DNA from: Pseudomonadota bacterium
GTDB taxonomy: Bacteria; Pseudomonadota; Alphaproteobacteria; SP197
Length of the DNA stretch: 64,000 nucleotides
Reading direction: 5' to 3'
NCBI GenBank assembly: GCA_039028155.1
Contig: JBCCIS010000002.1
Coordinates: 124,001 to 188,000 of the forward strand
In this document: piece by piece, positions 4,446 to 48,807 of the stretch
Numbering within the stretch: the first letter of the stretch is position 1
Layout of the letters: each line of letters opens with the position of its first letter
The notes under the pieces: model-generated
Told to the model about the DNA's origin: nothing
Database searches by the model: none
The model's input: only the letters and a program-made list of their open reading frames with translations
Made by a program: the position numbers and the translations under genes

Positions 4446-5506
4446 CTTATCCGGATTGGAAGACCTTTACCTCGACAAGCTTCGCCGCCGGACGCGACTA
4501 TCCGCTCCTTGCGCCGGAAACACCGAGCTTCATGAGCCAGCCGGTCGCCAAGACGCCGGCGGATCTGAAGGGCGCCGACATCGCGGTGATCGGCGCGCCC
4601 TATGTCGCGGCCTCTGGCGGCACCTATGCGGGCGTGCCGATGGAGGACTGGATCGCCGCGCCGAAACGGGTGCGCCAGCAGTCGGCGCGCTACCCGTCCG
4701 GCTATATCCAGGATTTCGACCTCGACGTCTTCGAGACGATCAAGCTGGTCGACTATGGCGATGCCGATATCCCGGCCGAAGCCATGGAGAACCCGACGGC
4801 GGAGAACGTCCTGGCCGCCCAGGCCGCGGTCGAGGCCAAGGTCAACGACGCGCTTGACGCCGGCGCCGTGCCCATCGTCATCGGCCAGAACAGCCCATGC
4901 GGCAGCTATGCCATCGCCAAGCCGGTCGCCGAGCACACCGACGGTCCAGTCGGCTGCATCAGCCTGGATACGCACTGGGACGCCCACGAACTCGACTACC
5001 TGACCGGCGACCCGCGCATCGCCGGGTCGTCGTCGTGGAAACACAAGATGTACGAGTTCCTGGACAACATGCATCCCAAACATCTGGTCGAGATCGGCGA
5101 GCGCGGCATGCTGGAGGACAAGCGCATCGTCAGGCGCTACCTGAACGATGGCGCGCGGTTCATCAGCTCGTGGGAGCTGCGTTCCGGCCTCGGCATCGAG
5201 GGGTTGGTGAAGGCGCTCGACCAGGCCTATGACGGCACCAAGGGCCAGTACATCCACTTCGACATGGACTGCATCGGCGGCGCCGGTCCCGCACCTGGCG
5301 ACATCCTGGGCGAGCTCGCCGAGCCGGTCGGCATGACCGATTACGAGGTCATCCGCATCGCGCACGAAATCGGCCGGCGCGGCCTGACCGGCATGAGCTT
5401 CATCTGCATTCCGCCGGGCAGTGCTGTGGTCTATCGCGTCATCGTCTACATCATCATGTATCTGGCCGCGGGCCTTGCGCTCCGGAAGCATGGCAGGGTT
5501 GCGTAA
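4442..5506 (+). CDS. Divergent ureohydrolase (arginase/agmatinase superfamily)
   Basis: The 354-residue protein has the arginase fold signatures: the metal-binding DTHWD at residues 176-180 and FDMD at 273-276. Two positions are not canonical. The usual GGDHS loop, which gives the first metal-binding His, reads GQNSP at 148-152. The usual DP after the second Asp pair is replaced by GG (IGGAGPAPGD). The ATG at 4442 overlaps the MarR stop by four bases. Family members hydrolyse guanidino groups to urea using a two-metal centre. With one ligand apparently lost, the metal site or reaction may differ. A canonical relative lies at 48808. Confidence 0.75.
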   Translation: MTYPDWKTFTSTSFAAGRDYPLLAPETPSFMSQPVAKTPADLKGADIAVIGAPYVAASGGTYAGVPMEDWIAAPKRVRQQSARYPSGYIQDFDLDVFETIKLVDYGDADIPAEAMENPTAENVLAAQAAVEAKVNDALDAGAVPIVIGQNSPCGSYAIAKPVAEHTDGPVGCISLDTHWDAHELDYLTGDPRIAGSSSWKHKMYEFLDNMHPKHLVEIGERGMLEDKRIVRRYLNDGARFISSWELRSGLGIEGLVKALDQAYDGTKGQYIHFDMDCIGGAGPAPGDILGELAEPVGMTDYEVIRIAHEIGRRGLTGMSFICIPPGSAVVYRVIVYIIMYLAAGLALRKHGRVA

Positions 5507-5676
5507 AGCGGTTGGATTGCCACGAAAAGACCTTGATCCAGACGATTGAACGGCGGCTTTTCGGTCCCAGATAGGACGCTTGAAACGGCGGGCTGTGGGC
5601 GCCCGCACGAGCGTCTAACCGATTGTCGTCAGGCGGGCCTAGAAACCGCCGATGCGCAGCAAGGATTGAAAAGACC

Positions 5677-5934
5677 ATGCGTGATCTCGTTCTCCCAGCC
5701 GCCTGTTCGGCGTCGCTGGCGGTGTCGTCTTGGGCCTATGCGGGCGAAACGGAAACCGGCACCGTGACGGCCATCGACGTGAAGGCCGGTACCCTTACGC
5801 TGGACACCGGCGTCATCTACCACCTCGCCAGAGGCCTCGATGTTCCGCTCGTCCAGCCCGGTCAATCGGTCGGTCTGACCTGGGCCATGGACAACGGTAG
5901 TCTCATGGTGAATGACCTCACGATCCTGCGCTAG
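5677..5934 (+). CDS. Small periplasmic protein, DUF1344 family
   Basis: This 85-residue protein has a signal peptide (MRDLVLPAACSASLAVSSWA, cleaved after AYA near residue 22). The mature domain of about 60 residues has the DUF1344 pattern: a GTVTAIDVKAGTLTLDTG strand pair, a Tyr-His-Leu segment, a basic or proline turn and PGQSVGLTW. AAGGA lies about ten bases before the ATG; the longer frame from 5623 would bury the signal peptide. Function of the family is unknown; the fold is likely a small beta-barrel. Confidence 0.75.
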   Translation: MRDLVLPAACSASLAVSSWAYAGETETGTVTAIDVKAGTLTLDTGVIYHLARGLDVPLVQPGQSVGLTWAMDNGSLMVNDLTILR

Positions 5935-5961
5935 GCGTCACGGCGCGTTCGCTGTTCGGTT

Positions 5962-6073
5962 GGCATCACCGCCCCACTGCCCCTCCACCGGGGCAAAACG
6001 CCGAGAGGCGTTTTCGCCGAGGCCACCCATGGCAGCATCCTCGGGGTGGCCAGGAGGGGAGTGGGCCGGTGCC
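5962..6073. repeat. Palindromic repeat, copy B, with nested terminator-like hairpin
   Basis: This copy shares the outer arms (CACCGCCCCACT ... AGTGGGCCGGTGCC) and the loop ATGGCAGCATCCTCG (6029-6043) with copy A. The inner arms are GGCCACCC at 6021-6028 and GGGTGGCC at 6044-6051. Inside the left arm is an extra hairpin, AAAACGCC at 5995-6002 and GGCGTTTT at 6007-6014, which ends in a T run like an intrinsic terminator. It lies between two convergent genes. Confidence 0.8.
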
Positions 6074-6096
6074 GTCTCCGCGTAAGCGGACCAGCA

Positions 6097-7041
6097 CTAG
6101 TTCAGCCGTTCCTTCAGTGCGCGGATGTGGTCGGGTGTCAGGCCGCAGCAGCCGCCGACGATCTGGACGCCTTGCTCGGTGATCCAGCCGGCGGCCGCCT
6201 CGGCATAAGGCGCGGGCTCGATAACGCCGCGGAACGTCCAGTCCGGCGGCGTGAACGTGCCACTGTGGGCATAGGCCAGCAGCGGTCCAGACCACACGGT
6301 CTTCAACGCATCCAGGCCTGGCGCCGTGTCCTCGACCTCTGAATGCATGATGCCGGCGGCGGCACCGCCGTTGGCCATGACGCGTTCGGCGAACGGGATG
6401 AATGGCTGACGTTTCCTATCCGCCTCGCGCAGTGGTGTACTAGAAGGGCCCTCCATGCTGCGCTCATTCGGAAAGGTGATCATGCGGCCCGCCTTTTCGT
6501 GGACGCTGAACCCGACCCAAACCGGCAGGCCGGTCGCGCGGGCAGCGTCGACACAAGCCTCCGCGTGGCCGGCCGTCATCATCATCTCGCACAGGATGAC
6601 GTCGCAGCCGCCCTCGGCCAGCGTCTCCGCAAGCCGCCGATAGTCATCCGCTGCTGCCTCGGCCGACGGCGTTTCGTCGACATGGGCTAGCGGCGGCATG
6701 GTCGACATGGAGCCGGCAAGCGCGACGTCGCGACCGGCGTCATCGCGCGCTTTCCGCGCCAGGCTGACGGCGGCGCTGTTGATTTCCTCGAACCGGTCGG
6801 CCAGGCCCGCCGGTTCCAGGGTGTAGCGGTTGGTGCCGAAGGTGTTGGTCGTAATGATATCGGCGCCGGCGGCGATGTAGTCGCGGTGCATGTCGCGCAC
6901 AGCATCGGGGTGCGACAGGTTGGCGCGGCCACACCAGGCGTCGTCATCCATCGGCACACCGCGGCGCTGCAACTCGGTGCCGATCGCGCCATCCAGCAGC
7001 AGAGTGCCGCCTTGCGCCAGCTTCTCGTCGATCCGGGTCAT
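6097..7041 (-). CDS. Homocysteine S-methyltransferase family protein (betaine- or methylmethionine-type)
   Basis: The 314-residue protein has the Pfam S-methyl_trans barrel: LLDGAIGTEL near residue 15, TTNTFGTNRYTLE at 64-76, and the zinc pair Cys298-Cys299 in GGCCG. In known enzymes (BHMT, MmuM) the third zinc ligand is a Cys in a G-x-N-C segment near residue 230; here the matching segment reads GIMHSE, so His233 may replace it. The reaction would move a methyl group from a methylated donor to homocysteine. It is divergent from two Rieske oxygenases, which suggests use of a betaine-type methyl donor, but this is inference. Confidence 0.8.
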   Translation of the reverse strand: MTRIDEKLAQGGTLLLDGAIGTELQRRGVPMDDDAWCGRANLSHPDAVRDMHRDYIAAGADIITTNTFGTNRYTLEPAGLADRFEEINSAAVSLARKARDDAGRDVALAGSMSTMPPLAHVDETPSAEAAADDYRRLAETLAEGGCDVILCEMMMTAGHAEACVDAARATGLPVWVGFSVHEKAGRMITFPNERSMEGPSSTPLREADRKRQPFIPFAERVMANGGAAAGIMHSEVEDTAPGLDALKTVWSGPLLAYAHSGTFTPPDWTFRGVIEPAPYAEAAAGWITEQGVQIVGGCCGLTPDHIRALKERLN

Positions 7042-8447: not shown

Positions 8448-9572
8448 ATGGCCGCGCTTGCAGCTGAAAAGATCACCGGTTTCGATATCGATCCCGAGCG
8501 GTCGCAAACGCTCGACCGCACGTACTACTTCGATCCCGAGGTCTACGATCGCGAGAAGAAGTCGATCTTCTATAAGACTTGGCAGTATGTCGGCCACGTT
8601 TCGATGGTCGACAAGCCCGGCGCCTATCTGGTGCGCGACATCTTCGATCAAAGCGTGTTGGTGATCCGCGACACCAAGGGCCAGTTGCGCGCGTTCTTCA
8701 ACGTCTGCCAGCACCGCGCCCATCGCCTTTTGGAAGGCGAAGGCCGGGTCGGCGGCGTTATCACCTGTCCCTATCACAGCTGGGCTTATGGCACCGACGG
8801 CTCGTTGCGCCGCGCGCGCGGCAGCGAGAAGGTCGAGTCCTTCGACGCGGACGCACTCTGCCTGGAGCCGGTCAGGCTCGACAGCATTCTGGGCTTCCTG
8901 TTCGTCAACCTGGACGGCTCGGCGCCACCGCTTGCCGACGTCGCCGGACCGCTTGCCGATGAGGTCGCGGCGTTCTCGCCGCACGCCGCCGAACTGAAGT
9001 GCGCGCACCGTGCCGACTATGCACTGAACGCCAACTGGAAGAACTCGGTCGAGAACTACAGTGAGTGCTTCCACTGCCCGAACCAGCACCCGACCCTGAT
9101 GCAAAACGCGATCGACTACGGTTCATACCGCATCACGACGTTCGAGCATCACCACAGCCATTACTCGGTCGGCGTCGGCGAGGCGCAGGGTTACTCGACC
9201 GCGACCGACGGCGCCGAAAAGCAGGATGAGTTCGGCAGCTTCATGCTGTTCCCGAACTGGTGCATCGAAGCCTATCCCGGCGGCAACCTGACCGTCTTCC
9301 ACCACGAGCCGACCGGTCCGGAAACCACCATGCAGCACTGCGAGTACTACTTCGCGGGCGACACGCCGACCAAGGAGGAGATGGAAGTCATCAACTTCGT
9401 CCACGAGGTCAGGTTGGAAGACATCCCGCTATGCGAAAGCGTGCAAAAAGGTCTGCATAGCCTGGGTTACCGCCAGGGCCGCTTCATCGTCGACGGCGAG
9501 AGAAGCGAGATCAGCGAGCACGCGGTGCACGACTTCCAGCACAAGGTGCGCCGGGCGCTCGGCGAAGCCTGA
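8448..9572 (+). CDS. Rieske oxygenase of the GbcA/stachydrine-demethylase (Stc2) type
   Basis: The 374-residue protein has Rieske ligands Cys87, His89, Cys107 and His110 (CQH...CPYH), and iron ligands His209 and His214 in the stretch VENYSECFHCPNQHP at residues 201-215. This E-N-Y-x-E-C-x-H-C-P pattern is characteristic of the quaternary-ammonium demethylases (glycine betaine GbcA, proline betaine Stc2, choline monooxygenase). The likely reaction is oxidative N-demethylation with release of formaldehyde. GGTGAGGAG lies upstream of the ATG. A TMADH-type flavoprotein at 14671 could act on the product. Confidence 0.85.
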   Translation: MAALAAEKITGFDIDPERSQTLDRTYYFDPEVYDREKKSIFYKTWQYVGHVSMVDKPGAYLVRDIFDQSVLVIRDTKGQLRAFFNVCQHRAHRLLEGEGRVGGVITCPYHSWAYGTDGSLRRARGSEKVESFDADALCLEPVRLDSILGFLFVNLDGSAPPLADVAGPLADEVAAFSPHAAELKCAHRADYALNANWKNSVENYSECFHCPNQHPTLMQNAIDYGSYRITTFEHHHSHYSVGVGEAQGYSTATDGAEKQDEFGSFMLFPNWCIEAYPGGNLTVFHHEPTGPETTMQHCEYYFAGDTPTKEEMEVINFVHEVRLEDIPLCESVQKGLHSLGYRQGRFIVDGERSEISEHAVHDFQHKVRRALGEA

Positions 9573-9802
9573 GCGAACACCCGCGCGGCCGGCGCACCGC
9601 CTACGTCAGAACACGCTGGGCGCTGCGAGGATGGTAGCCTAACGCAGTGATGACCGCTGCCTTGCCAACACCGCAAGGCGGCGTATCGTGTCATGCGTTG
9701 CGTTGAGCAGCGAGCGCCCGCCACCAAGGCGTCTCCCCGATTGTGGGGTGCCCGTGTCTCGTGTGTCGGGCGGTAAGCGTCTTAGGAACATGGGAGGCGA
9801 AG

Positions 9803-10087
9803 ATGGCACTGAGACGGTTCATCATCGAACGTGAGATCCCCGACGTCGGGAGTTTTGAACGCGAGCAACTCAAAGGCGCTGCCGCGAAATCCAACGAGGT
9901 GTTGGCCGAGCTCGCGCCCGACATTCAGTGGGTCGAGAGCTTCGTCGCCAACGACAAGACCTTCTGTGTCTACCTCGCCAAGGACGAGGGCGTCATCAAG
10001 AAGCACGCCGAGATGAGCGGCTTTCCGGCCAACACGATCACGGAAGTCCGTAAGATGATTGATCCGACAACCGAGAAGGCAAGGTAG
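9803..10087 (+). CDS. DUF4242 (SCO4226-like) small protein
   Basis: This 94-residue protein begins MALRRFIIEREIPDVG and has the ferredoxin-like alpha+beta pattern of DUF4242: an N-terminal strand, a long helix rich in Ala, Lys and Glu, then WVESFVANDKTFCVYLAKDE and a C-terminal helix. The family member SCO4226 binds nickel; whether this one does is unknown. The start at 9803 is preferred over upstream in-frame codons because GGGAGG stands five bases before it. It follows the Rieske genes after 230 bp, a gap in which nothing else was seen. Confidence 0.75.
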   Translation: MALRRFIIEREIPDVGSFEREQLKGAAAKSNEVLAELAPDIQWVESFVANDKTFCVYLAKDEGVIKKHAEMSGFPANTITEVRKMIDPTTEKAR

Positions 10088-10167
10088 CGAGACCAGCCGC
10101 AGACTTGCCGAGTCTCGTTACGCCAAAACGTTCGCGACAAGCGTGCAAGTGATGGCGCACTTGCGCT

Positions 10168-10229
10168 AGAGCGGATCATGGTTAGGTAGAACCGTCTGAC
10201 TGATCGACCTAACCATGTGAATCCGCTCT
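10168..10229. repeat. Long intergenic palindrome (AGAGCGGAT type)
   Basis: AGAGCGGATCATGGTTAGGT (10168-10187) pairs with 10207-10229, whose complement is identical apart from a 3-nt insertion; the spacer is 19 nt. It lies in the 291-bp gap between the DUF4242 gene and a MATE gene and recalls small palindromic elements common between alphaproteobacterial genes. The rest of the gap holds a TGCTCTAGGG end at about 10297 and no gene. Confidence 0.65.
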
Positions 10230-10378
10230 CTATCTATGCGTAGGGCAGGTTCACCTGCCTTAATGTCATCGCGAAGCGATTCCACCGAGACAGGATCTGC
10301 TCTAGGGTGTGAGACACTTTTGTCCCATCCTGGTCTCAGGTGTCACGCCTGGGCCACGCCAACGCCCAGGTCGGCATT

Positions 10379-11770
10379 ATGAGCGAAGCCACCCAAGCGC
10401 CGCGCGCCGAGCTAGCCGGCAGCCTGAAGGACGAACTCAGGCTGCACCGGCGCATCGCCGTGCCGATCGTGGCCACGTTCCTGGTCGAGCTGGGCATGTG
10501 GTACACCGACGCCATCATCGTCGGGCGTCTGGGCACCACGCCGCTGGCGGCGGTCGGTCTGCTGGGCGGAATTTTCTGGGAGCTTCTGTTCGTCGGCTTC
10601 GCCGTCCTGTCGATCACCGGTGTCTTCATGGGCAGCGGTTATGGCGCCGGCGATTCCGGCCTGATCCAACGGGCCTTCCGCCACGGGCTGTGGCTGGCGA
10701 CGCTGTTCGGCGTGCCGATGATGGCGTTCAGTTGGTACATGGCCGATCTCTTGGCATTAACCGGTCAGGACCCCGGTGTGATCACCGAGGGCAGAGCCTA
10801 TATCCACGCGGTCTTGTGGTCTGTGCTGCCAACCCTTTGGTTCGGCGTCATGCGCAATCTGGTGACGGCGCTCTCCAGGCCGGCCATCATCACGGCCATC
10901 TCGATCGTCATGCTGCCGGTGAACGCCGGTATGACCTGGTGGTTCGTGTTCGGCGGCCTGGGCCTTCCCGCCATGGGCGTCGCCGGCGCCGGCTGGGCAA
11001 CGGCGATCACGACCTGGCTTTCCTTCATCGCGCTGACGCTATGGGTTGCCCGGGTTCACACCTACCGCTTCTACCGGCCGTTCGCAGACCTGATGGTCAT
11101 GGACGCGGTCCTGTGGAAGCGCATTTTCCGCCTCGGCCTGCCGGTTGCCGGTGTACGTCTCATCGAAGGCTCGTCCTATCAGGTGGTGATGATCCTGATG
11201 GGTCTGTTCGGCGCCTCGGCGCTTGCCGCCCACCATGTCGTCTCTGCGATCGCGGGCCTCAGCACCACCCTGGTCATCGCCATCGCGCACACCTCGATCG
11301 TGCGCGTGTCCCAGGAAATCGGCGGCGGCCAACCGGCAAGCGCGCGCCGCGCCGGATGGGTCGCCATGGCCGTGGCACTTTGCCTGGCCGCACCGGTCGC
11401 TCTCTTCCTGTGGCTTGCACCCGATGGCGCGGCGTTCATCTTCCTGGACATCGATGACCCCCAGAATGCGTCGACGCTTGCACTGGTCGGAATCTTGGGG
11501 CTGATCGCCGCGCCGCTTATCTTGCTGGAGGCCGTCCACATCGTCGCCGCGCGCTCGCTGCGCGGGCGCCAAGATACCTGGATCCCCATGTGGATCTCCG
11601 CCGCCGGGGCGTGGCTTATTGCGTTCCCGGCCGCTGTTCTGCTGGCCTTCGCCGCCGATCTGGGCCCGGCCGGCCTGTGGTGGGGCATGATCGCCGGGCT
11701 CGTCGTTTCGGCCTCTTTGCTGACTCGCCGTTGGGCCCATGGGCCTTCGGTGCCGCCACCCGGGCCTTGA
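10379..11770 (+). CDS. MATE-family efflux transporter (second copy)
   Basis: From ATG 10379 the protein has 463 residues and about twelve membrane segments. It is clearly a paralogue of the protein at 728: both have the VELG/EFGI-x-x-TD...VGRLGT entry stretch, LTGQDP after helix 4, GVAGAGW/Y and a final GLWWG segment. A GTG 13 codons upstream (10340) is possible, but AGG spacing favours 10379. It should extrude cationic organic compounds by Na+ or H+ antiport. The neighbouring binding protein and amine-catabolism genes give no firm hint of substrate. Confidence 0.88.
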   Translation: MSEATQAPRAELAGSLKDELRLHRRIAVPIVATFLVELGMWYTDAIIVGRLGTTPLAAVGLLGGIFWELLFVGFAVLSITGVFMGSGYGAGDSGLIQRAFRHGLWLATLFGVPMMAFSWYMADLLALTGQDPGVITEGRAYIHAVLWSVLPTLWFGVMRNLVTALSRPAIITAISIVMLPVNAGMTWWFVFGGLGLPAMGVAGAGWATAITTWLSFIALTLWVARVHTYRFYRPFADLMVMDAVLWKRIFRLGLPVAGVRLIEGSSYQVVMILMGLFGASALAAHHVVSAIAGLSTTLVIAIAHTSIVRVSQEIGGGQPASARRAGWVAMAVALCLAAPVALFLWLAPDGAAFIFLDIDDPQNASTLALVGILGLIAAPLILLEAVHIVAARSLRGRQDTWIPMWISAAGAWLIAFPAAVLLAFAADLGPAGLWWGMIAGLVVSASLLTRRWAHGPSVPPPGP

Positions 11771-13143: not shown

Positions 13144-14541
13144 CTAATCCGCCTGTGGCCATAGGGGATGGTGGCGGTCGATCACATAGGCGTGGCGATG
13201 GCGTATCCGCCCATGGCGATGGGGATGGCTATGCGGCTCCGGTCCTTCCCAGCCCTCGTGCTCGTGCTGATGGTGTTCGTCATGCACGTGCTGATGCTGA
13301 TGGCGGACGGCCTCGTGGTGGTGCCATAGAGCGCCTTGATCACTGACCGGCCATTGGCGCCAGGCGGCAAGGCTTGCGATCAGGGCCAGGCCGCCGAGGA
13401 CGACAAAACAAACGTCCAGTCCCACCGCCACGCCGAGCCATCCGGCAAGCGGATAGGTGATCAGCCAGCAGGCATGGCTCAAGGCAAACTGCGCGGCGAA
13501 GACCGGCGGTCGGTCTTCCGCCTGGGTCGAGCGGCGCAGCAACCGGCCGACTGGTGTCAAGGCGGCGGCGTTGGCCACGCCCAACACGAACCATAGGACA
13601 AGCAGCGCGCTAAACGTCGGCGCGGCCTTTAGGAACAGAAGAAAACCCGCCGCCATGCCGGCGGCCAACAGGAAACAAGCGCCCAGCATGACCGCGCGAT
13701 CGGACCAACGCGCGAGCACGCGCGGCAAGACCAATGCGGCGATCATGGACCCCGCGCCGGCGGCGGCAAGCGCGACCGCGACCTTGACATCGCCGCCGTC
13801 CAGACTTGCGCGAACCAAGACCACCGTGTTGACAATGACCATGGCGCCGGCCGCCGCGACGGCGATGTTGATCCACAGCAGCGCTTTCAGCCGCGGCGTG
13901 TGGCGGAAGATGGCCAGGCCGCGCTTCAGTCTTGAACCGATGGTGTCGTCATCCTTGGGCGCGGCGCCGGGCAGGCGGACCGACAAGACCAGAAGCGCGG
14001 AGGCAAGGAAGCCGATCGCGGTGCCGTCGAACAGCCACGGGAAGCTCACCACCAGCAGCAGCAGCGCGGCGATCGCCGGGCTCAACAGAGCCTCCAGATC
14101 ATAGGCCAGGCGCGACAGCGAGAGCGCGTTGGTATAGGTCGCTTCGTCTTCCAGGACGTCCGGGATGGTCGCCTGGAAGACCGGCGTGAAGACGGCCGAG
14201 GCCGCTTGCAGCACGAAGATCAGGCCGAAGATCTGCCAGACAGCGTCGACAAAGGGCAGCATTAGCGCGGCGGCCAGGCGCACCAGGTCGGCCGCGACCA
14301 GGACGCGCCGGCGCGGCAGGGTGGTCGCGAAGGCGCCGGCGACAGGCGCGATGATCACATAGGCGACCATCTTGATGGCCAGCGCGATACCCAGCACCAG
14401 ACCCGCGTCCGCGCCGGCGAGCTCATAGGCGAGCAGACCAAGCGCCACGGTCGCCAACCCGGTGCCGAACAAGGCGACGATTTGGGCCGCCAGCAATCGG
14501 CGATAGACCGGATGGGCGAGCGGTGTCAGGAGCGAGGTCAT
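13144..14541 (-). CDS. MFS exporter with histidine-rich C-terminal tail (NreB-like)
   Basis: The first 400 or so residues form a twelve-helix major-facilitator protein. The last 59 residues (407-465) contain 19 histidines in clusters such as HQHQHVHDEHHQHEHE and HSHPHRH. The known nickel-resistance exporter NreB has the same design, an MFS body with a cytoplasmic His-rich tail, so export of Ni2+ or a similar metal (Co2+, Zn2+) is likely. The tail should lie in the cytoplasm and bind metal. The gene is convergent with the binding protein. No metal regulator is adjacent. Confidence 0.8.
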   Translation of the reverse strand: MTSLLTPLAHPVYRRLLAAQIVALFGTGLATVALGLLAYELAGADAGLVLGIALAIKMVAYVIIAPVAGAFATTLPRRRVLVAADLVRLAAALMLPFVDAVWQIFGLIFVLQAASAVFTPVFQATIPDVLEDEATYTNALSLSRLAYDLEALLSPAIAALLLLVVSFPWLFDGTAIGFLASALLVLSVRLPGAAPKDDDTIGSRLKRGLAIFRHTPRLKALLWINIAVAAAGAMVIVNTVVLVRASLDGGDVKVAVALAAAGAGSMIAALVLPRVLARWSDRAVMLGACFLLAAGMAAGFLLFLKAAPTFSALLVLWFVLGVANAAALTPVGRLLRRSTQAEDRPPVFAAQFALSHACWLITYPLAGWLGVAVGLDVCFVVLGGLALIASLAAWRQWPVSDQGALWHHHEAVRHQHQHVHDEHHQHEHEGWEGPEPHSHPHRHGRIRHRHAYVIDRHHPLWPQAD

Positions 14542-14670
14542 GGTGGATCCAGATGCTTCAGCAGCCGCTGGGATTGCAACCGCACGGATTGTCCTTTGGC
14601 TGACGCACGCTCGTCCATAAAGATCTTAATGGCCAATCACGAACGTGGGCCGAAGCGCCCACCGTTGCGG

Positions 14671-16662
14671 TTAAAGCGTCAGTGCCAGTTTGCGCGCTTC
14701 GTAGAACGCCATGGATGCCGTGCGCGGTGCCACGGTGTCGCCGATGCTGTGTACCTCGGTGCCGTCGTCGGCGAACGCCGCGGTCAGGCTGTTCACCGGC
14801 CGGTTGGTGGTCGCCAGCACCAGGCTGTCGAAGTCGCGGGTTTCCTGGTCGCCCGTATAGAGATTGATGAGGGTCGCCGTGTTGCCCTGCCACGAAACCA
14901 GCCCGGTCGCGGTCAGCACCTCGACGCCCATCTTCATGAACCGCTCGCGCGCCGTTTCGCCAGTCTGGGAGAGGTCCAGCGCGCCGGCCGCCTTTTCCGC
15001 CGCCGTGACCACGGTGACCATGTGGCGTTGTTCGGCAAGGTGCAGCGCGGTGCCGCTGGCCGGCCACCAGCCATTGAGATCATCGAGCAACAGGACATTG
15101 GTCCCCGGTACTACATCGCCCTCCAGGACATCATGAATTGTGCATACATTGTCCTGGTCGGCGCCTTCCAGGGCCTCGATATGCGGAAAGGCGCGCTGGA
15201 ATCCGCGCCGGTCAGGTTCTGATCCTGTTGCCAAAACGACCGTGTCGGGCTCAAGCCCGCGAATGGCCTCGACGTCCAGATCGGCCCGCAGCATGACGCG
15301 CACCTGAAGCTTCTCGAGCTGACCTTGGTACCAAGTGAGCAGGCCGCCGATCTCACCGCGTTCCGGCTGGCCGGCGGCGAGCCGGAACTGGCCGCCCAAT
15401 TCGTCGCGGCGTTCGGCCAGCGTGACCCGGTGGCCCCGTTCGGCGGCAACGCGCGCCGCCTCCAGACCGGCCGGTCCACCGCCGACAACGACCACATGGC
15501 GCGGCTTCTCGGATGACGGCGGTTTGTCGCCGCCCCATTCGCTCTCGCGCCCGACCGATGGGTTGACGAGGCAGGAGATGTGGTAGTCGCGCATACGCCG
15601 GCCGATGCAAAGCTGGTTGCAGGAGATGCACGGGCGCACGTCCTCGGCGCGGCCTTCGCGCGCTTTGTTGGCCAGATGCGGGTCGGCGATCTGGCCGCGC
15701 ACGATCGAGACCAGGTCCGCCTTGCCGTCGGCAATCACCGCCTCGGCATTGGCCGGTGTCTTGACCCGGGCCTCTGCGGTGACCAGCGCATGCTTGGTGA
15801 CCTCTTTGAACGCCGCGGCATCAGGTGGGCCCAGCAGCATGCCGTAGTGAAAGCTCGGCACGATCTTGGTGAACTGGTTCAGATAGCTGCCGGTGCCGCA
15901 GGAGAAGTAATCGATCAGCCCGCGTTCATCGAGCCAGGCAATGATCTCCTGCTTGTCTTCGATGGTCAGGCCGCCCGGATAGGGCTCGGCGCCGGAGATC
16001 GTCATGCCGATGATGAAGTTGTCGCCGCAGGTCTTGCGGATGCCGTCTGCGATGCGCGCGGCGAAGCGCACGCGGTTCTCCAGGTTGCCGCCCCACTGGT
16101 CGTCACGCTTGTTGGTCAGGGGCGACCAGAACTGATCGATCAGGCAGTTGTAACCGGCGAAGAGGTCGACGCCGTCGAAGCCGCCGTTCTGGTCGCGCTG
16201 GGCTTGCTCGATGAAGGCCGCGATCAGTTCCTCGATCTCCGCCTCGGTCATCGCATGGCTGCCCCAGGGGTCGTGGAAGCTCGGCCCGCCCGACGGCGAC
16301 CAATAGGGTGTCCACGAGTTGTCCTGATCGCCGTGCTGCCCGACATGATAGATCTGGTGGACCATCACGGTGCCGTGGCTGTGGCATTCGTCGGTGATGC
16401 GGCGGAAGTGGGGGATGACGCTGTCGTCGTGGCGCAGGTTGCCGCGGGTCAGGATCGCGGTCTCGTGGGGCGGCGTCGGCTCGACCACGATCATCGCCGC
16501 GCCGCCGCGCGCGCGTTCCCGGTAATAGCCGAAGTGGCGGTCGGACGGCAGGCCGTCCTCGGCCATGTTTGCGGTGTGCGCGCCGAACACGATCCGGCAC
16601 TTCAGCTCCTTGTCGCGCAGCTTGACCGGCGAAAACAGATGCGGAAAGGCCTGCTCGGCCAT
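14671..16662 (-). CDS. TMADH/N-methylproline-demethylase-type flavoprotein (OYE plus 4Fe-4S)
   Basis: This 663-residue protein has an N-terminal Old-Yellow-Enzyme FMN barrel (about 1-340), a [4Fe-4S] motif with Cys345, Cys348, Cys352 and Cys364, and a C-terminal FAD/NAD(P)-like domain starting with VVVGGGPAGLEAA near 391. This layout occurs in trimethylamine, dimethylamine and histamine dehydrogenases, dienoyl-CoA reductase and N-methylproline demethylase. With a GbcA/Stc2-type Rieske enzyme 5 kb away, oxidative N-demethylation of a secondary or tertiary amine is favoured. The start at 16662 has GGGAGG six bases upstream; a nine-residue extension is possible. Confidence 0.8.
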   Translation of the reverse strand: MAEQAFPHLFSPVKLRDKELKCRIVFGAHTANMAEDGLPSDRHFGYYRERARGGAAMIVVEPTPPHETAILTRGNLRHDDSVIPHFRRITDECHSHGTVMVHQIYHVGQHGDQDNSWTPYWSPSGGPSFHDPWGSHAMTEAEIEELIAAFIEQAQRDQNGGFDGVDLFAGYNCLIDQFWSPLTNKRDDQWGGNLENRVRFAARIADGIRKTCGDNFIIGMTISGAEPYPGGLTIEDKQEIIAWLDERGLIDYFSCGTGSYLNQFTKIVPSFHYGMLLGPPDAAAFKEVTKHALVTAEARVKTPANAEAVIADGKADLVSIVRGQIADPHLANKAREGRAEDVRPCISCNQLCIGRRMRDYHISCLVNPSVGRESEWGGDKPPSSEKPRHVVVVGGGPAGLEAARVAAERGHRVTLAERRDELGGQFRLAAGQPERGEIGGLLTWYQGQLEKLQVRVMLRADLDVEAIRGLEPDTVVLATGSEPDRRGFQRAFPHIEALEGADQDNVCTIHDVLEGDVVPGTNVLLLDDLNGWWPASGTALHLAEQRHMVTVVTAAEKAAGALDLSQTGETARERFMKMGVEVLTATGLVSWQGNTATLINLYTGDQETRDFDSLVLATTNRPVNSLTAAFADDGTEVHSIGDTVAPRTASMAFYEARKLALTL

Positions 16663-42659: not shown

Positions 42660-44159
42660 CTACCGCTCCTGCACAATACGCCGGTAGCTGAGCGCTTCGG
42701 CCAGATGCACGCGGCCGACCCGATCGGCGCCGGCCAGGTCGGCGATGGTGCGCGCGACGCGCAGGACGCGGTGGTAGCCGCGCGCGGATAGGCGCAGGCG
42801 GTCGGTGGCCTCGCTCAAGAGCTGCTGGCCCGCGTCGTCGGGCTTGGCGGCAGCTTCCAACACTTGACCGTCGGCGCGCGCGTTGACGCGGACCTCCGGT
42901 GTGTCGGCGTAACGGCTGGCCTGAATGGCGCGCGCGGCGGCGACGCGGCGGGCGACCTCGGCCGAGCCTTCGGCGGGCGGCGGCAGGGCGAGGTCGGCGG
43001 CGGCGACCTCCGCCACCTCGACATAGAGATCGATGCGGTCGAGCATGGGACCGGAGATGCGCGCCTGATACTCAGCGGCGCAACGCGGCCCGCGCGTGCA
43101 GTTGATGCCGGTGCCGCAGCGGCAGGGGTTCATGGCGGCGATCAGCTGGAACCGCGCGGGGTAGGTGACGTGATGGTTGGCGCGCGCGACCACGCACTGG
43201 CCGGTCTCGACCGGCTGGCGCAGCGCGTCCAGGACCTGGCGCTGGAACTCCGGCAGCTCGTCCAGGAACAAAACGCCGTTATGGGCCAGCGCCGCCTCGC
43301 CCGGCTTGGCCTTCAAGCCGCCGCCGACCAGCGCCGCCATGCTGGCGGAATGGTGGGGATCGCGGAATGGCCGGCGCCGGCTGACACGCCCGCCCGCCAG
43401 TTCACCGGCGACCGAGGCTATCAGGCTGGTTTCCAACGCCTCTTCCGGGGCCAGCGGCGGCAGAATGCCGGCAAGGCGCTGGGCCAGCATCGACTTGCCG
43501 GCGCCCGGCGGGCCGATCATCAAGAGGTTGTGGCCGCCGGCAGCCGCAACCTCCAGCGCCCGCTTGGCCGTCTCCTGGCCTTTGACGTCGATGAGGTCGG
43601 GGACGTCGACCGTGTCGTCGGCAAGCCGGGGTTCCGGCGGCGCCAGAACCTGGTTGCCCTTGAGGTGATTGACCAGGGCCAGCAGGTGATCGGGCGCGAC
43701 GACGTCGACGGCCCCTGCCCAGGCGGCTTCCGAGCCGTTGGCTGCCGGGCAGATCAGGTTCTTCTCGACCCGGCCGGCGGCGATGGCGGCGGGCAGCACG
43801 CCGGCGACTGGGCTGATCCGCCCATCCAAACCCAGTTCGCCGAGGACCAGATGTTCCTCCGCGGCATCGGCGGGCAAGGCGCCCAGGGCGACCATCAGGC
43901 CGACGGCGATGGGCAGATCGTAGTGGCTGCCTTCCTTGACCAGATCGGCCGGCGCCAGGTTGACGGTGATGCGTTTGGGCGGCAGCGCCAACGCGACGGC
44001 GCCAAGCGCGGCGCGCACCCTCTCCCGACTCTCCGCGACCGCCTTATCGGCCAGCCCGACGATGGCAAAGGACGGCATGCCGCCGGCAACGGAGACCTGG
44101 ACCTCCACCGGCACCGCTTGGATGCCCGCCAGGGCCACCGTCGTCACGTGCGCAACCAT
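42660..44159 (-). CDS. comM: YifB/ComM-family Mg-chelatase-like AAA+ ATPase
   Basis: The 499-residue protein has an N-terminal ChlI-like fold (VEVQVSVAGGMPSFAIVGL, DLPIAVGLM), an AAA+ core with Walker A GPPGAGKSM near residue 217 and Walker B VLFLDELPEF, and a C-terminal Mg_chelatase_C domain with a Cys cluster (CRCGTGINCTRGPRC) at about 345. ComM helicases promote branch migration during natural transformation. In alphaproteobacteria it often lies near gshB and yraN, here 13 kb away. It is divergent from the TPR/ATP-grasp pair. Confidence 0.92.
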   Translation of the reverse strand: MVAHVTTVALAGIQAVPVEVQVSVAGGMPSFAIVGLADKAVAESRERVRAALGAVALALPPKRITVNLAPADLVKEGSHYDLPIAVGLMVALGALPADAAEEHLVLGELGLDGRISPVAGVLPAAIAAGRVEKNLICPAANGSEAAWAGAVDVVAPDHLLALVNHLKGNQVLAPPEPRLADDTVDVPDLIDVKGQETAKRALEVAAAGGHNLLMIGPPGAGKSMLAQRLAGILPPLAPEEALETSLIASVAGELAGGRVSRRRPFRDPHHSASMAALVGGGLKAKPGEAALAHNGVLFLDELPEFQRQVLDALRQPVETGQCVVARANHHVTYPARFQLIAAMNPCRCGTGINCTRGPRCAAEYQARISGPMLDRIDLYVEVAEVAAADLALPPPAEGSAEVARRVAAARAIQASRYADTPEVRVNARADGQVLEAAAKPDDAGQQLLSEATDRLRLSARGYHRVLRVARTIADLAGADRVGRVHLAEALSYRRIVQER

Positions 44160-44247
44160 GACGAGAGGCTAGCGGGTTGCGCGCGCGCGTCCAGCGATTT
44201 GATCGCACCCCAGGTCATAGGGGGTAAGCCGACCTTCCTGGGGGAAC

Positions 44248-44270
44248 GGTCACTGAACGTGACCTATAGT
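44248..44270 (+). promoter_or_regulatory. Inverted repeat and -10-like box upstream of the TPR/ATP-grasp pair
   Basis: GGTCAC (44248-44253) and GTGACC (44259-44264) form a perfect 6-bp inverted repeat with a 5-nt spacer, immediately followed by TATAGT (44265-44270), a good -10 hexamer. No clear -35 is seen. The start codon is 75 bases downstream. This would suit a repressor or activator site. Confidence 0.45.
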
Positions 44271-44345
44271 GCGCGGCACGATAGGTCTTCGGTGAGCGGG
44301 CGGCGGCCAACTGGATCGGTGCCGCCGAATAGGGTTGACGCAGAT

Positions 44346-46151
44346 ATGGCCAGAAGACGTGCTGAAAAGGCCAAACCTTCGCCACAGCAAACACTGCAGC
44401 CGCACGAGCTGTTTGCGCGCATGAACGACGTGAGCCGGCTGGAACAGGCAGGTGATGTTACGTCCGCGCTTGCCGCATCGCGCCATCTGGCGTTGCAAGT
44501 CCCAGACCGGGCCGAAGCCGCGCGCCTGGCCATCGACGTCGCACTGCGCGCCAACAGACGTCAAGCCGCCGACACCCTCGTCAAGACACTGCGGGCGAAG
44601 AGCTCCAATAGTCTCGCGGCCGCTTATGCGGCGACCTATGTCCACTTTCGACGTGACCGCGTAACCGCGGCGCGCAAGGCGGCCGCGGATCTTATCGAAC
44701 GTTTTCCGACGAACCTGCGTGGCGCACAGTTGCTGGCGGAGATTGCTACCGCACAGGACGATTGGGCCGGGGCGATCGACGTTCTCAAGGCCGTGCTGCA
44801 GCACCATCGTCAGGATGCTCGGATCCACCAGCAGCTCGCCGGTCTCTGTTGGCGTACCGGCGAGTTCGAGGAGGTTGTCACGTTCGCGCGGCAGGCAAAG
44901 GATCTGGGCCTCGACGCCGCAGCCAACACGCGCCTGCTCGGCGCGGCGCTCAGCCAGCTGAACCGGCACGACGAAGCCGTCGATGTTTTGCGTGAAGCCC
45001 ATGCCGTCGATCCCGACCACTTCGAGACCCTGGCGCTTTTGTCAGTCGCGCGTGTCGGCATGGCCGACGTCGATGGCGCGATGGCGGATGTCGAGCGCGC
45101 GCTGGACCTTCAACCGTTCAGCATCAGGGAAACGCCATCGGCCGATGGCCAGCGACCGTTTACCGTGCTTGCGCTGGAGAACGGTAGCCCGGCGCTCTAT
45201 GTACGCAGCGACTTCGCCAACTACCATCTGCAGAACTTCATCTCCTATCTCGCATCGCCGGGCTTGCGCATCGCGCATACGCCGGTGACGTCGAATAGCG
45301 TGTCGCGCCTGGCAGCGTCGGAACTGCATCCGGATGTCATCGTCAACAATGTTGTCGTCGGCGAGATTTTTGACGACGCGGTGCTTCAGCATCACCGCAA
45401 CATCATGGAGCTCTATGGCGACGTACCTGTCGTCAATCCACCTGAGGCCGTGATCCATTGTGAGCGGGTGGAGAACAGCCGACGGTTCGAAGGTGAGAGC
45501 GGGTTCATCTTTCCGAAGACGCGCCATGTCAATCTCGATGTCATGGCGTTCGACGACGTCTTAACTCTGGTCGAGACAGAGTTTGATTGGCCTATTCTGC
45601 TTCGCCCGCCCTACACGGACGAAGGCATCGGCATGAGTCTCGTTGACAATGCGGACTCCTTGCGCGAACAGATCGAGGCGATCGAGCTCAAGAACTGCCT
45701 CATCATCCAGTACCACGAGTGCCGCAGCCTGGAGGGTGTCGGGCACCAATACCGTGGCCTGGTGATTGGCGATATCGCCTACGTCGATCGCGTGAACAGC
45801 TTTTTGGACTTCCAGTCTCACGACAACCTGCGCCGCGAAGCCGTCTGGCAGAAGCGTGGGTTCGACAAGATCGAACAGGCTTTCCTTGCCGATCCCGACA
45901 GCGCCCTGGGTTTTGATTACAAGACCGTCTTCGCGCCAATCATCGAGCGCACACCACTCGACATCTTCGGGTTCGATTTCAGCATCACGCGCGATGGCCG
46001 TCCCATTGTGTTCGAGGTCAACGCGTCGATGAACTTGTTCAACAAGGCCAACGCCGCGTGGTCGCCCTACCTGCAGGACCACTATCAGTTCTTGAACGAC
46101 GTGGTCGTCGACTATCTGCGCAGCAGAGCGAACGCGGCGTCGACAGACTGA
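44346..46151 (+). CDS. TPR protein with C-terminal ATP-grasp-like domain (copy 1)
   Basis: From ATG 44346 the protein has 601 residues. Residues about 20-270 form a TPR-like helical array (repeats ending ALDLQPFS). Residues about 280-600 look like an ATP-grasp ligase: FIFPKTR, WPILLRPPYTDEGIGM, IQYHECRSLEGVGHQYRG and the C-terminal FGFDFSITRDGRPIVFEVNA, which resembles the metal-binding D-x-N end of the fold. No signal peptide. A close paralogue follows after 46 bp. Peptide or amide ligation is inferred; the substrate is unknown. Longer frames upstream run antisense to comM and are not used. Confidence 0.7.
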   Translation: MARRRAEKAKPSPQQTLQPHELFARMNDVSRLEQAGDVTSALAASRHLALQVPDRAEAARLAIDVALRANRRQAADTLVKTLRAKSSNSLAAAYAATYVHFRRDRVTAARKAAADLIERFPTNLRGAQLLAEIATAQDDWAGAIDVLKAVLQHHRQDARIHQQLAGLCWRTGEFEEVVTFARQAKDLGLDAAANTRLLGAALSQLNRHDEAVDVLREAHAVDPDHFETLALLSVARVGMADVDGAMADVERALDLQPFSIRETPSADGQRPFTVLALENGSPALYVRSDFANYHLQNFISYLASPGLRIAHTPVTSNSVSRLAASELHPDVIVNNVVVGEIFDDAVLQHHRNIMELYGDVPVVNPPEAVIHCERVENSRRFEGESGFIFPKTRHVNLDVMAFDDVLTLVETEFDWPILLRPPYTDEGIGMSLVDNADSLREQIEAIELKNCLIIQYHECRSLEGVGHQYRGLVIGDIAYVDRVNSFLDFQSHDNLRREAVWQKRGFDKIEQAFLADPDSALGFDYKTVFAPIIERTPLDIFGFDFSITRDGRPIVFEVNASMNLFNKANAAWSPYLQDHYQFLNDVVVDYLRSRANAASTD

Positions 46152-46197
46152 AGTCAACGGGCGCAGTATCAAGCACCGGCAACAGAAATCTGCTTAC

Positions 46198-47973
46198 ATG
46201 GCGAAGAAGCGAAGCACGAAACCCATATCATCACCGTCGCCTGCGTTGTTCTTGCGTGTTGACGAGGTCCTGAAGCTTGAGGCCGGTGGCAAGATCGCGG
46301 ATGCGGTGAAGGCCGCGCGGAGTCTCGCGGTTGAGAACCCGGACCGGGCCGAGATCGCGCGTCTAGCCATCGACATGGCATTGCGCGGCAACAAGGAGCA
46401 AGCGGCCGAGACGGTCGTGAAGGCACTGCGTTCGAAGCACGCGGACAGCTTGGCTGCGGGCTATGTGACGGCCTATGTCCATCTTAGACGCGGCCGTCTG
46501 GAGGCCGCCAGGAAAGCGGTCGACAAGCTCTCAGCACGGTTTCCCACGAGCACGTTCGCAGCCCTTTTGTTCGCCGATATCTGCGCTGCTCAATCAGATT
46601 ACGAGAACGCGATCGCGAAGCTTGAGGCTGTGGTGTCACGCCATGGTGGCGACGGTCCTCTGCATCATCGTCTGGCCGGTCTCTATTGGAGGAGCGCCCG
46701 ACTGGAGGAAGCGGCGGAGGCGGCGCAGCAGGCGCGCGATCTCGGCATGACCCAGACAGCGAATGCGCGTCTTCTGGGAGCGGCACTCTGCCAGTTGGAA
46801 AGGTATGGTGAAGCGGTGCCCATACTGCACGAAGCAGATGAATCCGAGCCCGGCCACTTCGATACCATGGCCTTGCTGTCAGTGGCGCGGTGTGGCGCGG
46901 GTGACAGTGCCGGTGCCACGGTCGACGTCGAACGCGCGCTTGACCTCAAGCCGTTCAGCGTCCGCGCGCCCACTGGCCTGGATGACGGATCGGGCCTGAC
47001 CGTGCTGGTGCCCGAATTTGCCAGCGCGGCGTTTTTCATGCGCGCGGACTTTGCTCAGTACCAGGAGCATAACTTCATTGCCTACTTGACGGCGCCGGAC
47101 CTGCGCGTGGTGCACGCCCCTGTTACAGCGGGGACGGCCAAGCGTTTGGCGAGATCCGGACTTCGTCCGGACATCATCGTCAACAACCTGACGGTCAAGG
47201 AACTCGTCCACGACGAGACCCAGGAGCATTACCAAACCGTTATCGACAACTTCGACGGTGTTCCTGTCGTCAATCCGATTGATAGGGTTCTCGAATGCGG
47301 ACGGGAAGAGAACTACCGTAAGTTCGAGAGTGAGACAGACTTCATTTTTCCCAAGACCCGGCCGTTGTCGGCTGACGCCAAGACATTGGACGCAGTCGTG
47401 GAAGAGATCGAAACCCACTTCACGTGGCCGGTACTGTTGCGCCCGACGCACACCAACATCGGTGAAGGCATGGATCTGATCGACGGTCCCGACGGGTTGC
47501 GCGACAGAATGAACCTGATCGGACGCAAGGACCATTTCGTCATTCAATATCACGAATGCCGCAACGAGGATGGGGTGGGTCGCCAATACCGCGCATCGAT
47601 CGTTGACGGCGAGTTCCTGGGCGACAAGGCGAACACCCACGTTGACTACCAGTCCCATAACGACTTCCGCCAGGAGGCGGTCTGGTTCGAACAGGGCTAC
47701 GACAAACCGGAACGGGCGTATCTGGCCGATCCGTCCGGTGCGCTCGGCTTCGACGTCTACGAGAGGTTCGCCAGCCTATTCGCCAAGACACCCTTGGACA
47801 TCTATGGCATCGACTTCGCGATCAATCGCGAGGGCCGGCCGGTCGTCTTCGAGGCCAACGCGGCCATGAACCTCTATGACCTGAAGAACGTCAGGTGGAC
47901 GCCCTATCACAAGGAATACCACGACAACTTTCAACGCACTGTGGCGCGCTATCTGCGCGGCAGAGCCGCGTGA
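46198..47973 (+). CDS. TPR protein with C-terminal ATP-grasp-like domain (copy 2)
   Basis: The 591-residue protein matches copy 1 along its whole length: TPR array in residues about 18-260, then DIIVNNLTVKELV, FIFPKTRPL, WPVLLRPTHTNIGEGM, IQYHECRNEDGVGRQYR and YGIDFAINREGRPVVFEANA. Both copies keep the same acidic and Asn residues at the end, so both are probably active. The start ATG begins a Lys/Arg-rich leader (MAKKRSTKP), as in copy 1. The pair forms an operon that ends eight bases before a convergent gene. Confidence 0.7.
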   Translation: MAKKRSTKPISSPSPALFLRVDEVLKLEAGGKIADAVKAARSLAVENPDRAEIARLAIDMALRGNKEQAAETVVKALRSKHADSLAAGYVTAYVHLRRGRLEAARKAVDKLSARFPTSTFAALLFADICAAQSDYENAIAKLEAVVSRHGGDGPLHHRLAGLYWRSARLEEAAEAAQQARDLGMTQTANARLLGAALCQLERYGEAVPILHEADESEPGHFDTMALLSVARCGAGDSAGATVDVERALDLKPFSVRAPTGLDDGSGLTVLVPEFASAAFFMRADFAQYQEHNFIAYLTAPDLRVVHAPVTAGTAKRLARSGLRPDIIVNNLTVKELVHDETQEHYQTVIDNFDGVPVVNPIDRVLECGREENYRKFESETDFIFPKTRPLSADAKTLDAVVEEIETHFTWPVLLRPTHTNIGEGMDLIDGPDGLRDRMNLIGRKDHFVIQYHECRNEDGVGRQYRASIVDGEFLGDKANTHVDYQSHNDFRQEAVWFEQGYDKPERAYLADPSGALGFDVYERFASLFAKTPLDIYGIDFAINREGRPVVFEANAAMNLYDLKNVRWTPYHKEYHDNFQRTVARYLRGRAA

Positions 47974-47981
47974 TCAATCGA

Positions 47982-48668
47982 TCAGGTCGCCGTGAATGCC
48001 ACCAAAGCGCGATGAGTCGCCTCGTCGACGCCGTCTGACCAAACGGTCCAGGTATCGTCGGAAGGGGTGAAGGCCGATGGGTCACCAACGGCAAGGTCGA
48101 CGGTGACGATGCCGCCATGGGTGTCCAAACGCCCGTAACGTAGCGCGCTTGCGCTATCGTGGCGGGCATGGATGACATGAGGGCCGGCCGCCACCAGGAT
48201 GTCGACCGGATCATCGCCTGAGAACCGCACCTTGCCGCCGGCGGTGGTGAAGGTGCCGCGCGAGGCGGCGAAGCATGATGCGGCCCGGTCAATCCGGTGG
48301 TACTCCTCCATGTAGTTGGTCAGCAGCCCGACCTCGATCATGACGTCGCTGTCCAGGAACATGGCTCCTTTGTCACCGCCTTCCGGCCGGCGATGCAGGT
48401 CGACGGGGCGGTGCCAGGTGAACACCTGGTCGTCAACATCGAGCCATCCGGCGAACCCTTCGTCGCGGGCATGTGGCGATGGATCATCGGGTGCCGCAAC
48501 GCGGATATCGGCATAGAGCGTCGGCGTCTGGATCCAGATCACCGTGGTCGTCGTGTCTTCGCGGCCGGGATAGCGGCCGAACGCGCGCCGCCATACGCCG
48601 CACGCCCAGTCGGGCACACAGAGCGAACGAAGCTCGTTGATGCGTGAGTGGTCGAGGTCGGTGGTCAT
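47982..48668 (-). CDS. Protein of unknown function
   Basis: The 228-residue protein was not assigned to a family. It is rich in beta-strand-like segments with conserved-looking Trp, Asp and His: TTTVIWIQTPTLYADIRVA, DDQVFTWHRPVDL, KGAMFLDSDVMIEVGL and a final DDTWTVWSDGVDE. This suggests a beta-barrel (lipocalin- or Hri1-like) fold, but only by appearance. No signal peptide. ATG 48668 has GGAG eight bases upstream. It is divergent from the agmatinase-family gene, which may be linked in function. Confidence 0.6.
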   Translation of the reverse strand: MTTDLDHSRINELRSLCVPDWACGVWRRAFGRYPGREDTTTTVIWIQTPTLYADIRVAAPDDPSPHARDEGFAGWLDVDDQVFTWHRPVDLHRRPEGGDKGAMFLDSDVMIEVGLLTNYMEEYHRIDRAASCFAASRGTFTTAGGKVRFSGDDPVDILVAAGPHVIHARHDSASALRYGRLDTHGGIVTVDLAVGDPSAFTPSDDTWTVWSDGVDEATHRALVAFTAT

Positions 48669-48807
48669 GGCGAACTCCGGGTTGATCGGCGGGCCCCACG
48701 TTTGATGGTTCGCGCGGGCGGTGCAACCGAATTGCCGCTGATTCAATTCGTGGCGGATATGCTCTAGGTTGGTCGCGGGCCAATAGCCAGCTTCCAGGAC
48801 GCCCGCG

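Follow-up and report, generated by a model that had tools for sequence, protein, structure and literature searches.

The 64,000-nucleotide stretch of alphaproteobacterial DNA analyzed here (the window) carries two tandem genes on the plus strand, which are separated by 46 bp and encode proteins with a TPR array followed by an ATP-grasp module (Table 1). The open reading frames bear out a preliminary description of the window, in which two tandem proteins of about 600 residues had been noticed. The two proteins are paralogs with an overall sequence identity of 50%, which rises to 54% for the TPR part and falls to 47% for the catalytic part. The motif GRPIVFEVNA of the first protein reads GRPVVFEANA in the second. 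The open frame of gene 1 is longer (42864-46151), and the start at position 44346 is a choice within it; two observations favor this start, namely its alignment with the start of the gene 2 protein and a divergent gene beginning at position 44159.

Table 1. Features of the locus, in positions of the window.
Feature	Position	Strand	Remarks
comM (Mg-chelatase family)	42660-44159	-	flanks the pair
Variable slot holding the pair	44160-47981		between comM and the gene at 47982-48746
Gene 1 (P0001), TPR array and putative ATP-grasp ligase	44346-46151	+	601 aa
Gene 1, TPR solenoid (aa 19-258)	44400-45119	+	seven helix pairs; AlphaFold2 helices, Foldseek and VIA TPR matches, Pfam TPR
Gene 1, pre-ATP-grasp and ATP-grasp module (aa 271-601)	45156-46148	+	key residues R374, R420, R470, D544, E557, N559
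Gene 2 (P0002), paralogous TPR array and putative ATP-grasp ligase	46198-47973	+	591 aa
Gene 2, TPR solenoid	46237-46956	+	limits approximate; alignment with gene 1
Gene 2, ATP-grasp module	46993-47970	+	key residues all kept; alignment
Uncharacterized gene	47982-48746	-	flanks the pair; followed by an arginase-family gene

The two genes form an accessory unit that occupies a variable slot. In a genome of the same genus (G003), the flanking genes are found in the same order with 62-92% amino acid identity, and the slot holds a mandelate-racemase/enolase-like open reading frame, identified by eye, in place of the pair. The GC content of the pair (0.61) lies inside the local range and gives no compositional sign of recent transfer. 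No oxygenase, PLP-enzyme, secretion or precursor gene adjoins the pair, and neither the 46 bp between the two genes nor the 186 bp upstream of them contain a convincing small open reading frame for a precursor peptide. A search of the window genome for a dedicated TauD partner yielded only generic TauD relatives.

A third, distant copy, which had escaped the preliminary description, is located on another contig of the same genome (G000:C25:32706-33689, inside a 581-aa open reading frame).

Fold and active site of the TPR-ATP-grasp proteins

Pfam detects TPRs in both proteins with E-values of 1e-11 to 1e-12 (TPR_19, 1.4e-11 and 7.8e-13). For the catalytic part, a sub-threshold signal of the RimK ATP-grasp family was obtained with the gene 1 protein (E 0.0013); none of the family members tested reaches the cut-off of an ATP-grasp Pfam family, and a search of NCBIfam returned nothing above cut-off. 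An AlphaFold2 model of the gene 1 protein, built from a 36-sequence alignment (pLDDT 91.0, pTM 0.85), consists of fourteen helices (residues 19-255), which are followed by an alpha/beta module. Foldseek matched the front part to consensus TPR structures and to the TPRs of OGT, and the rear part to D-Ala-D-Ala ligases and RimK. Pfam matches, helices and structural matches agree on tandem TPR hairpins that form a solenoid. In VIA-align, RimK was the top match (Z 19.4; 270 aligned residues of model residues 272-595, rmsd 3.6 A), followed by LysX/ArgX and the glutathione synthetase GshB; D-cycloserine synthetase, kinases (ITPK) and synapsin were matched as well. Furthermore, a profile of 37 catalytic domains matches LysX in the PDB by sequence alone (E 8e-8). 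The model thus has the pre-ATP-grasp and ATP-grasp parts of the superfamily, and the order of a TPR array before an ATP-grasp-like domain, which had been proposed from the letters of the DNA, withstood structure prediction. Since the architecture recurs in many genomes, and in view of the quality of the model and its match to RimK, the two genes are not chance open reading frames.

ATP-grasp enzymes possess a basic residue in the linker and another one ending strand 2 of the first subdomain, a glycine loop, an aspartate, an ExN motif and an arginine typical of peptide and amide ligases (PMC4431377). By our reading of the alignment, the corresponding residues in both window proteins are R374, R420, D544, E557-x-N559 and R470, together with a TDEGIGM-like glycine loop. 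Across 36 members of the family, N364, R374, P416, R470, D544 and G551 do not vary, and R420, E510, D539 and E557 hardly do. Both window proteins retain all metal and phosphate residues. Throughout the family, arginine takes the place of the two lysines with which ATP-grasp enzymes usually bind ATP. The third copy carries a histidine in place of R420 and an alanine in place of the first glycine of the loop, and may therefore be inactive. Fold and residues together make a carboxylate-activating ligase the likely chemistry class of the pair, and this is the safest conclusion on its activity; ligation is nevertheless likely rather than certain, because related ATP-grasp folds include kinases such as ITPK and also synapsin.

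In the TPR solenoid, the A helices are more conserved between paralogs than the B helices (62% versus 50%, and 43% versus 29%), which could be a weak sign of ligand binding. OGT holds its substrates by TPRs, and both RimK and LysX act on proteins. From these analogies, the conservation of the A helices and the secretion-linked relatives described below, we infer a role of the TPR arm in binding a peptide or protein substrate.

Distribution and genomic partners of the family

Homologs were found in two of the 16 genomes of the taxonomic family (the window genome and G008), in 21 of 385 genomes sampled from the class (~5%) and in 31 of 398 genomes of a phylum-wide draw. These homologs came from whole-genome searches; scans of contigs from close relatives, based on a single protein and a two-row alignment, gave none. 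Searches of phage and plasmid records with the ATP-grasp domain of the pair yielded no relative, and plasmid relatives appear only if derived or fused relatives are used as query. The window proteins had no match among phage families and only weak generic matches among anti-phage defense models. The pair belongs to a patchily distributed proteobacterial ATP-grasp family. In Pfam, NCBIfam and the open papers searched, no description was found of the family, of its arginines in place of lysines, of the fusion to TPRs or of the oxygenase-TPR-ATP-grasp fusion described below, and the open papers searched yielded no account of the TPR-ATP-grasp architecture. The statement of the preliminary description that no characterized system has this architecture accordingly holds for these sources and for PDB sequences.

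A tree of 46 domains, calculated by maximum likelihood, joins the window pair with the third copy in a separate clade on a long branch (support 100/100). The group nearest to this clade comprises six loci (L037, L038, L039, L040, L041 and L079; support 88/94). A large derived clade is made up of proteins with few residues before the catalytic domain, around 50 to 90 in most members. A second, independent tandem pair of TPR-ATP-grasp genes (genome G197, locus L042) is placed in a clade of its own; it lies beside a gene for a TPR-GT41 (OGT-like) protein.

Four of the six nearest relatives have a TauD-type Fe(II)/2-oxoglutarate oxygenase as partner, which keeps the HxD...H iron ligands. At L037 and L038, the oxygenase (TauD/TfdA) is encoded by a separate gene that overlaps the TPR-ATP-grasp gene at its start, and L039 and L040 encode fusion proteins of 767 and 770 aa with the order oxygenase-TPR-ATP-grasp. 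Directly upstream of the L039 fusion, on the same strand, genes are found for HlyD, a type I ABC exporter and a 109-aa repeat protein of the composition (GGDDDDDGGRGRK)n, whose ATG is preceded by a purine-rich stretch. At L038, the upstream gene codes for a cadherin/FG-GAP/RTX repeat protein, a typical cargo of type I secretion; the link to secretion among the relatives is thus formed by two loci, L038 and L039. The pattern coding for DDDDDGGRG was present at the L039 locus only when 385 genomes of the class were searched, so that the idea of an Asp-rich substrate comes from a single locus. At L053, a PhyH-type oxygenase gene is located directly upstream.

A different set of partners is found in the derived clade. 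A PLP decarboxylase (Pyridoxal_deC) is present at 15 of the 44 loci examined, all of them in this clade, either in the same operon or fused (L049), and 13 of these 15 loci also carry an undescribed protein folding like fold-type I PLP enzymes. The decarboxylase of L084 is closest to the diaminobutyrate decarboxylase RhbB, far under the model cut-off, and an aminotransferase-V/SerC-like gene occurs at two other loci. The decarboxylase operons and the short N-terminal part suggest that members of the derived clade use small amines as substrates.

Relation to known enzymes and possible function

The closest structural relative of the pair is RimK, the ribosomal protein S6 glutamate ligase (PDB 5zct, 7qys), which acts on a protein carboxylate. 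Its three-part ATP-grasp fold extends along the entire catalytic module of the pair at 17% identity, and the metal-binding pattern is the same. However, RimK lacks a TPR part, no ribosomal link was seen for the pair, and RimK has a lysine, K141, at the ATP (PMC10092738), where the pair has an arginine. The cut-offs for RimK were missed both in Pfam (PF08443, 18.8 versus 21 bits; 20.5 versus 21 bits with the domain alone) and in NCBIfam (TIGR00768, 19.4 versus 143.4 bits). LysX and ArgX (PDB 3vpd, 5k2m), the best match of the family at the level of sequence profiles, are ligases for the carrier protein LysW, in which a Glu side chain receives an amino acid. They likewise lack a TPR part, and neither a LysW-like carrier gene nor genes for lysine or arginine biosynthesis were noticed at the loci examined. 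A similar TPR part with a different catalytic domain is seen in the O-GlcNAc transferase/SPINDLY family (GT41): a TPR superhelix precedes a protein-modifying catalytic domain, as in the pair, but the catalytic domain is an unrelated glycosyltransferase and not an ATP-grasp enzyme.

Graspetide synthetases are ATP-grasp enzymes which crosslink side chains of a precursor into macrolactones or macrolactams. NCBIfam models of this group (MvdC/MvdD, TIGR04187) gave no match up to an E-value of 1, and the precursor gene expected of a graspetide is missing beside the pair, with a candidate only at L039. The corallotide synthetase CorB is reported to form a complex with the 2OG-Fe(II) oxygenase CorC on a precursor with repeated motifs (PMC13097080), and the account consulted mentions no TPR fusion. 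The pairing resembles the oxygenase-fused relatives of the window proteins and is their closest working precedent, although the corallotide oxygenase belongs to PF13640 and that of the relatives is TauD-type. The R2K clade, which includes CDC123 and bacterial families, contains divergent ATP-grasp enzymes predicted to tag proteins (PMC4431377), and the pair has weak R2K_2/R2K_3 matches in Pfam, all below cut-off. R2K enzymes have lost the basic residue of the linker, which is replaced by a Lys/Arg in the RAGNYA loop, as well as the ssxGbGl loop (PMC4431377); the pair, in contrast, has the invariant linker residue R374 and the G-x-G loop TDEGIGM. The decarboxylase partners also prompted us to consider methylofuran glutamate ligases (PMC8141765), but no link to this pathway was found.

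Both ATP-grasp ligases and modifying enzymes with a TPR arm have been known before. The probable activity of the family is either the modification of peptides or proteins or the synthesis of amides. With about an even chance of being correct, our preferred reading is that the two proteins are ATP-dependent amide or ester ligases like RimK/LysX or the graspetide synthetases, whose TPR arm holds a peptide or protein that would be supplied in trans, since the operon contains neither a precursor nor a partner gene. The TPR solenoid ahead of the catalytic module would hold the substrate, which we infer to be a peptide or protein, and ATP-Mg would be bound in the cleft of the RimK/LysX-like module. 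A carboxylate would then be phosphorylated and joined to an amine or hydroxyl; the most likely carboxylates are those of Asp or Glu side chains and of the C-terminus of the peptide or protein. The two paralogs probably act in succession on one substrate, or on two related ones, in trans. The preliminary description had proposed that a protein or peptide is selected for modification by the TPR part, which is plausible by analogy: the RimK and LysX/ArgX folds and the oxygenase-fused relatives near type I secretion genes speak for it, whereas the relatives with a short N-terminal part and PLP decarboxylases speak against it, so that this part of the proposal stands in qualified form.

The PLP enzymes of the derived clade give reason to consider that the proteins are instead small-molecule amide ligases, which is possible, albeit clearly less probable than ligation to a peptide or protein. 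The amine made by a PLP decarboxylase would be joined to a small acid, for instance in a siderophore-like or signaling metabolite, the pair would carry out two amide-forming steps on this metabolite, and the TPRs would serve for oligomerization or docking. The frequent co-occurrence of decarboxylase and fold-type I PLP enzyme, the RhbB-like decarboxylase, the SerC-like genes and the short segment before the catalytic domain in most derived members all fit this view. However, PLP partners are absent beside the window pair. Its clade is characterized by long TPR arrays, and four of the six nearest relatives are associated with oxygenases.

It is rather unlikely that the proteins are regulatory or pseudo-enzymes, that is, mainly TPR scaffolds with a nucleotide-binding ATP-grasp part, of which one copy is active and one regulatory. 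Synapsin, to which the model was matched, is an ATP-grasp fold that serves without known ligase activity, and the loss of both ATP-binding lysines as well as the substitutions in the third copy would fit such a role; yet every metal and phosphate residue is kept in both window genes, and the near-invariance of the arginines argues for function and against decay. Despite RimK being the best structural match, it is very improbable that the pair are ordinary RimK-type enzymes with added TPRs, which glutamylate a ribosomal protein or some comparable housekeeping target, as the RimK family cut-offs were missed, and the patchy distribution and the replaceable slot are unlike those of a housekeeping gene.

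Returning to ligases with a peptide or protein substrate, it is tempting to speculate, though doubtful, that TPR-ATP-grasp proteins form the core of an undescribed peptide- and protein-modifying system. The oxygenase-fused form would hydroxylate and crosslink or tag Asp-rich repeat proteins prior to type I secretion, and the window pair would be a stripped-down version with two ligases, whose TPR arm selects an unlinked target protein. Should the preferred reading of the pair as ligases be right, it would add a family of ATP-grasp ligases with their own substrate-holding arm and exchangeable partners, namely an oxygenase, a PLP decarboxylase and possibly a protein glycosyltransferase. As the domain libraries searched here fail to detect the ATP-grasp part, such clusters may go unnoticed. 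The L039 fusion, together with its Asp-rich repeat protein and exporter, is a directly testable candidate for a new kind of modified secreted peptide, with a logic close to that of corallotide.

PLP enzymes in ATP-grasp operons

At 13 loci, operons that encode a PLP decarboxylase and the ATP-grasp protein also include a member of a fold-type I PLP enzyme family. Its members carry the motifs SGT, D-SK-G, D-CQ-R and TGSKF, and those tested fall into no Pfam or NCBIfam family. In the structure model (pLDDT 80), the nearest folds are Egt2 and SufS. The family is an undescribed one, predicted to be of fold type I.

Features at loci of relatives; the PLP enzymes are a partial list, as further loci carry the same family
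Feature	Locus	Coordinates	Strand	Remark
Fold-type I PLP enzyme	L049	7481-9067		
Fold-type I PLP enzyme	L054	4036-5799		
Fold-type I PLP enzyme	L087	6399-7712		
Fold-type I PLP enzyme	L093	5895-7514		
Fold-type I PLP enzyme	L095	8488-10119		
Fold-type I PLP enzyme	L096	7766-9091		
Fold-type I PLP enzyme	L098	8478-10235		
Derived family member	L101	7914-9172		Cupriavidus sp. EM10 plasmid p352-3
Repeat protein, 109 aa	L039 (G105:C36)	14381-14707	-	(GGDDDDDGGRGRK)n repeats
Third paralogue	L036 (G000:C25)	8957-10699		Same genome as genes 1 and 2

In one large-genome family, flagellar hook and hook-associated genes directly precede the ATP-grasp/decarboxylase cassette; flgE/flgK/flgL-like genes were identified by eye upstream of the ATP-grasp gene at one locus only (L084, 9129-14881), and ORFs upstream of the cassette at L092 and L098 are similar to them in size.

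Plasmid and exporter contexts

The derived member on the conjugative plasmid apparently comprises two overlapping ORFs, possibly split by a frameshift, and neighbours glycosyltransferase and ABC transporter genes. At L039, the repeat gene precedes genes for an ABC exporter, HlyD and the oxygenase-TPR-ATP-grasp fusion, and its product is a candidate modified secreted peptide.

Third paralogue and variable slot

In the third paralogue, the ATP-binding arginine (R420 of gene 1) is replaced by histidine and one loop glycine by alanine; this protein is possibly inactive. Its C-terminal part (gene 1 residues 400-601) is nearer to gene 1, at 52%, than the same part of gene 2, at 47%, and it may also have recombined. 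The slot between comM and the gene at 47982-48746 holds different cargo in two same-genus genomes (44160-47981 in the window, 5302-6477 at L149).
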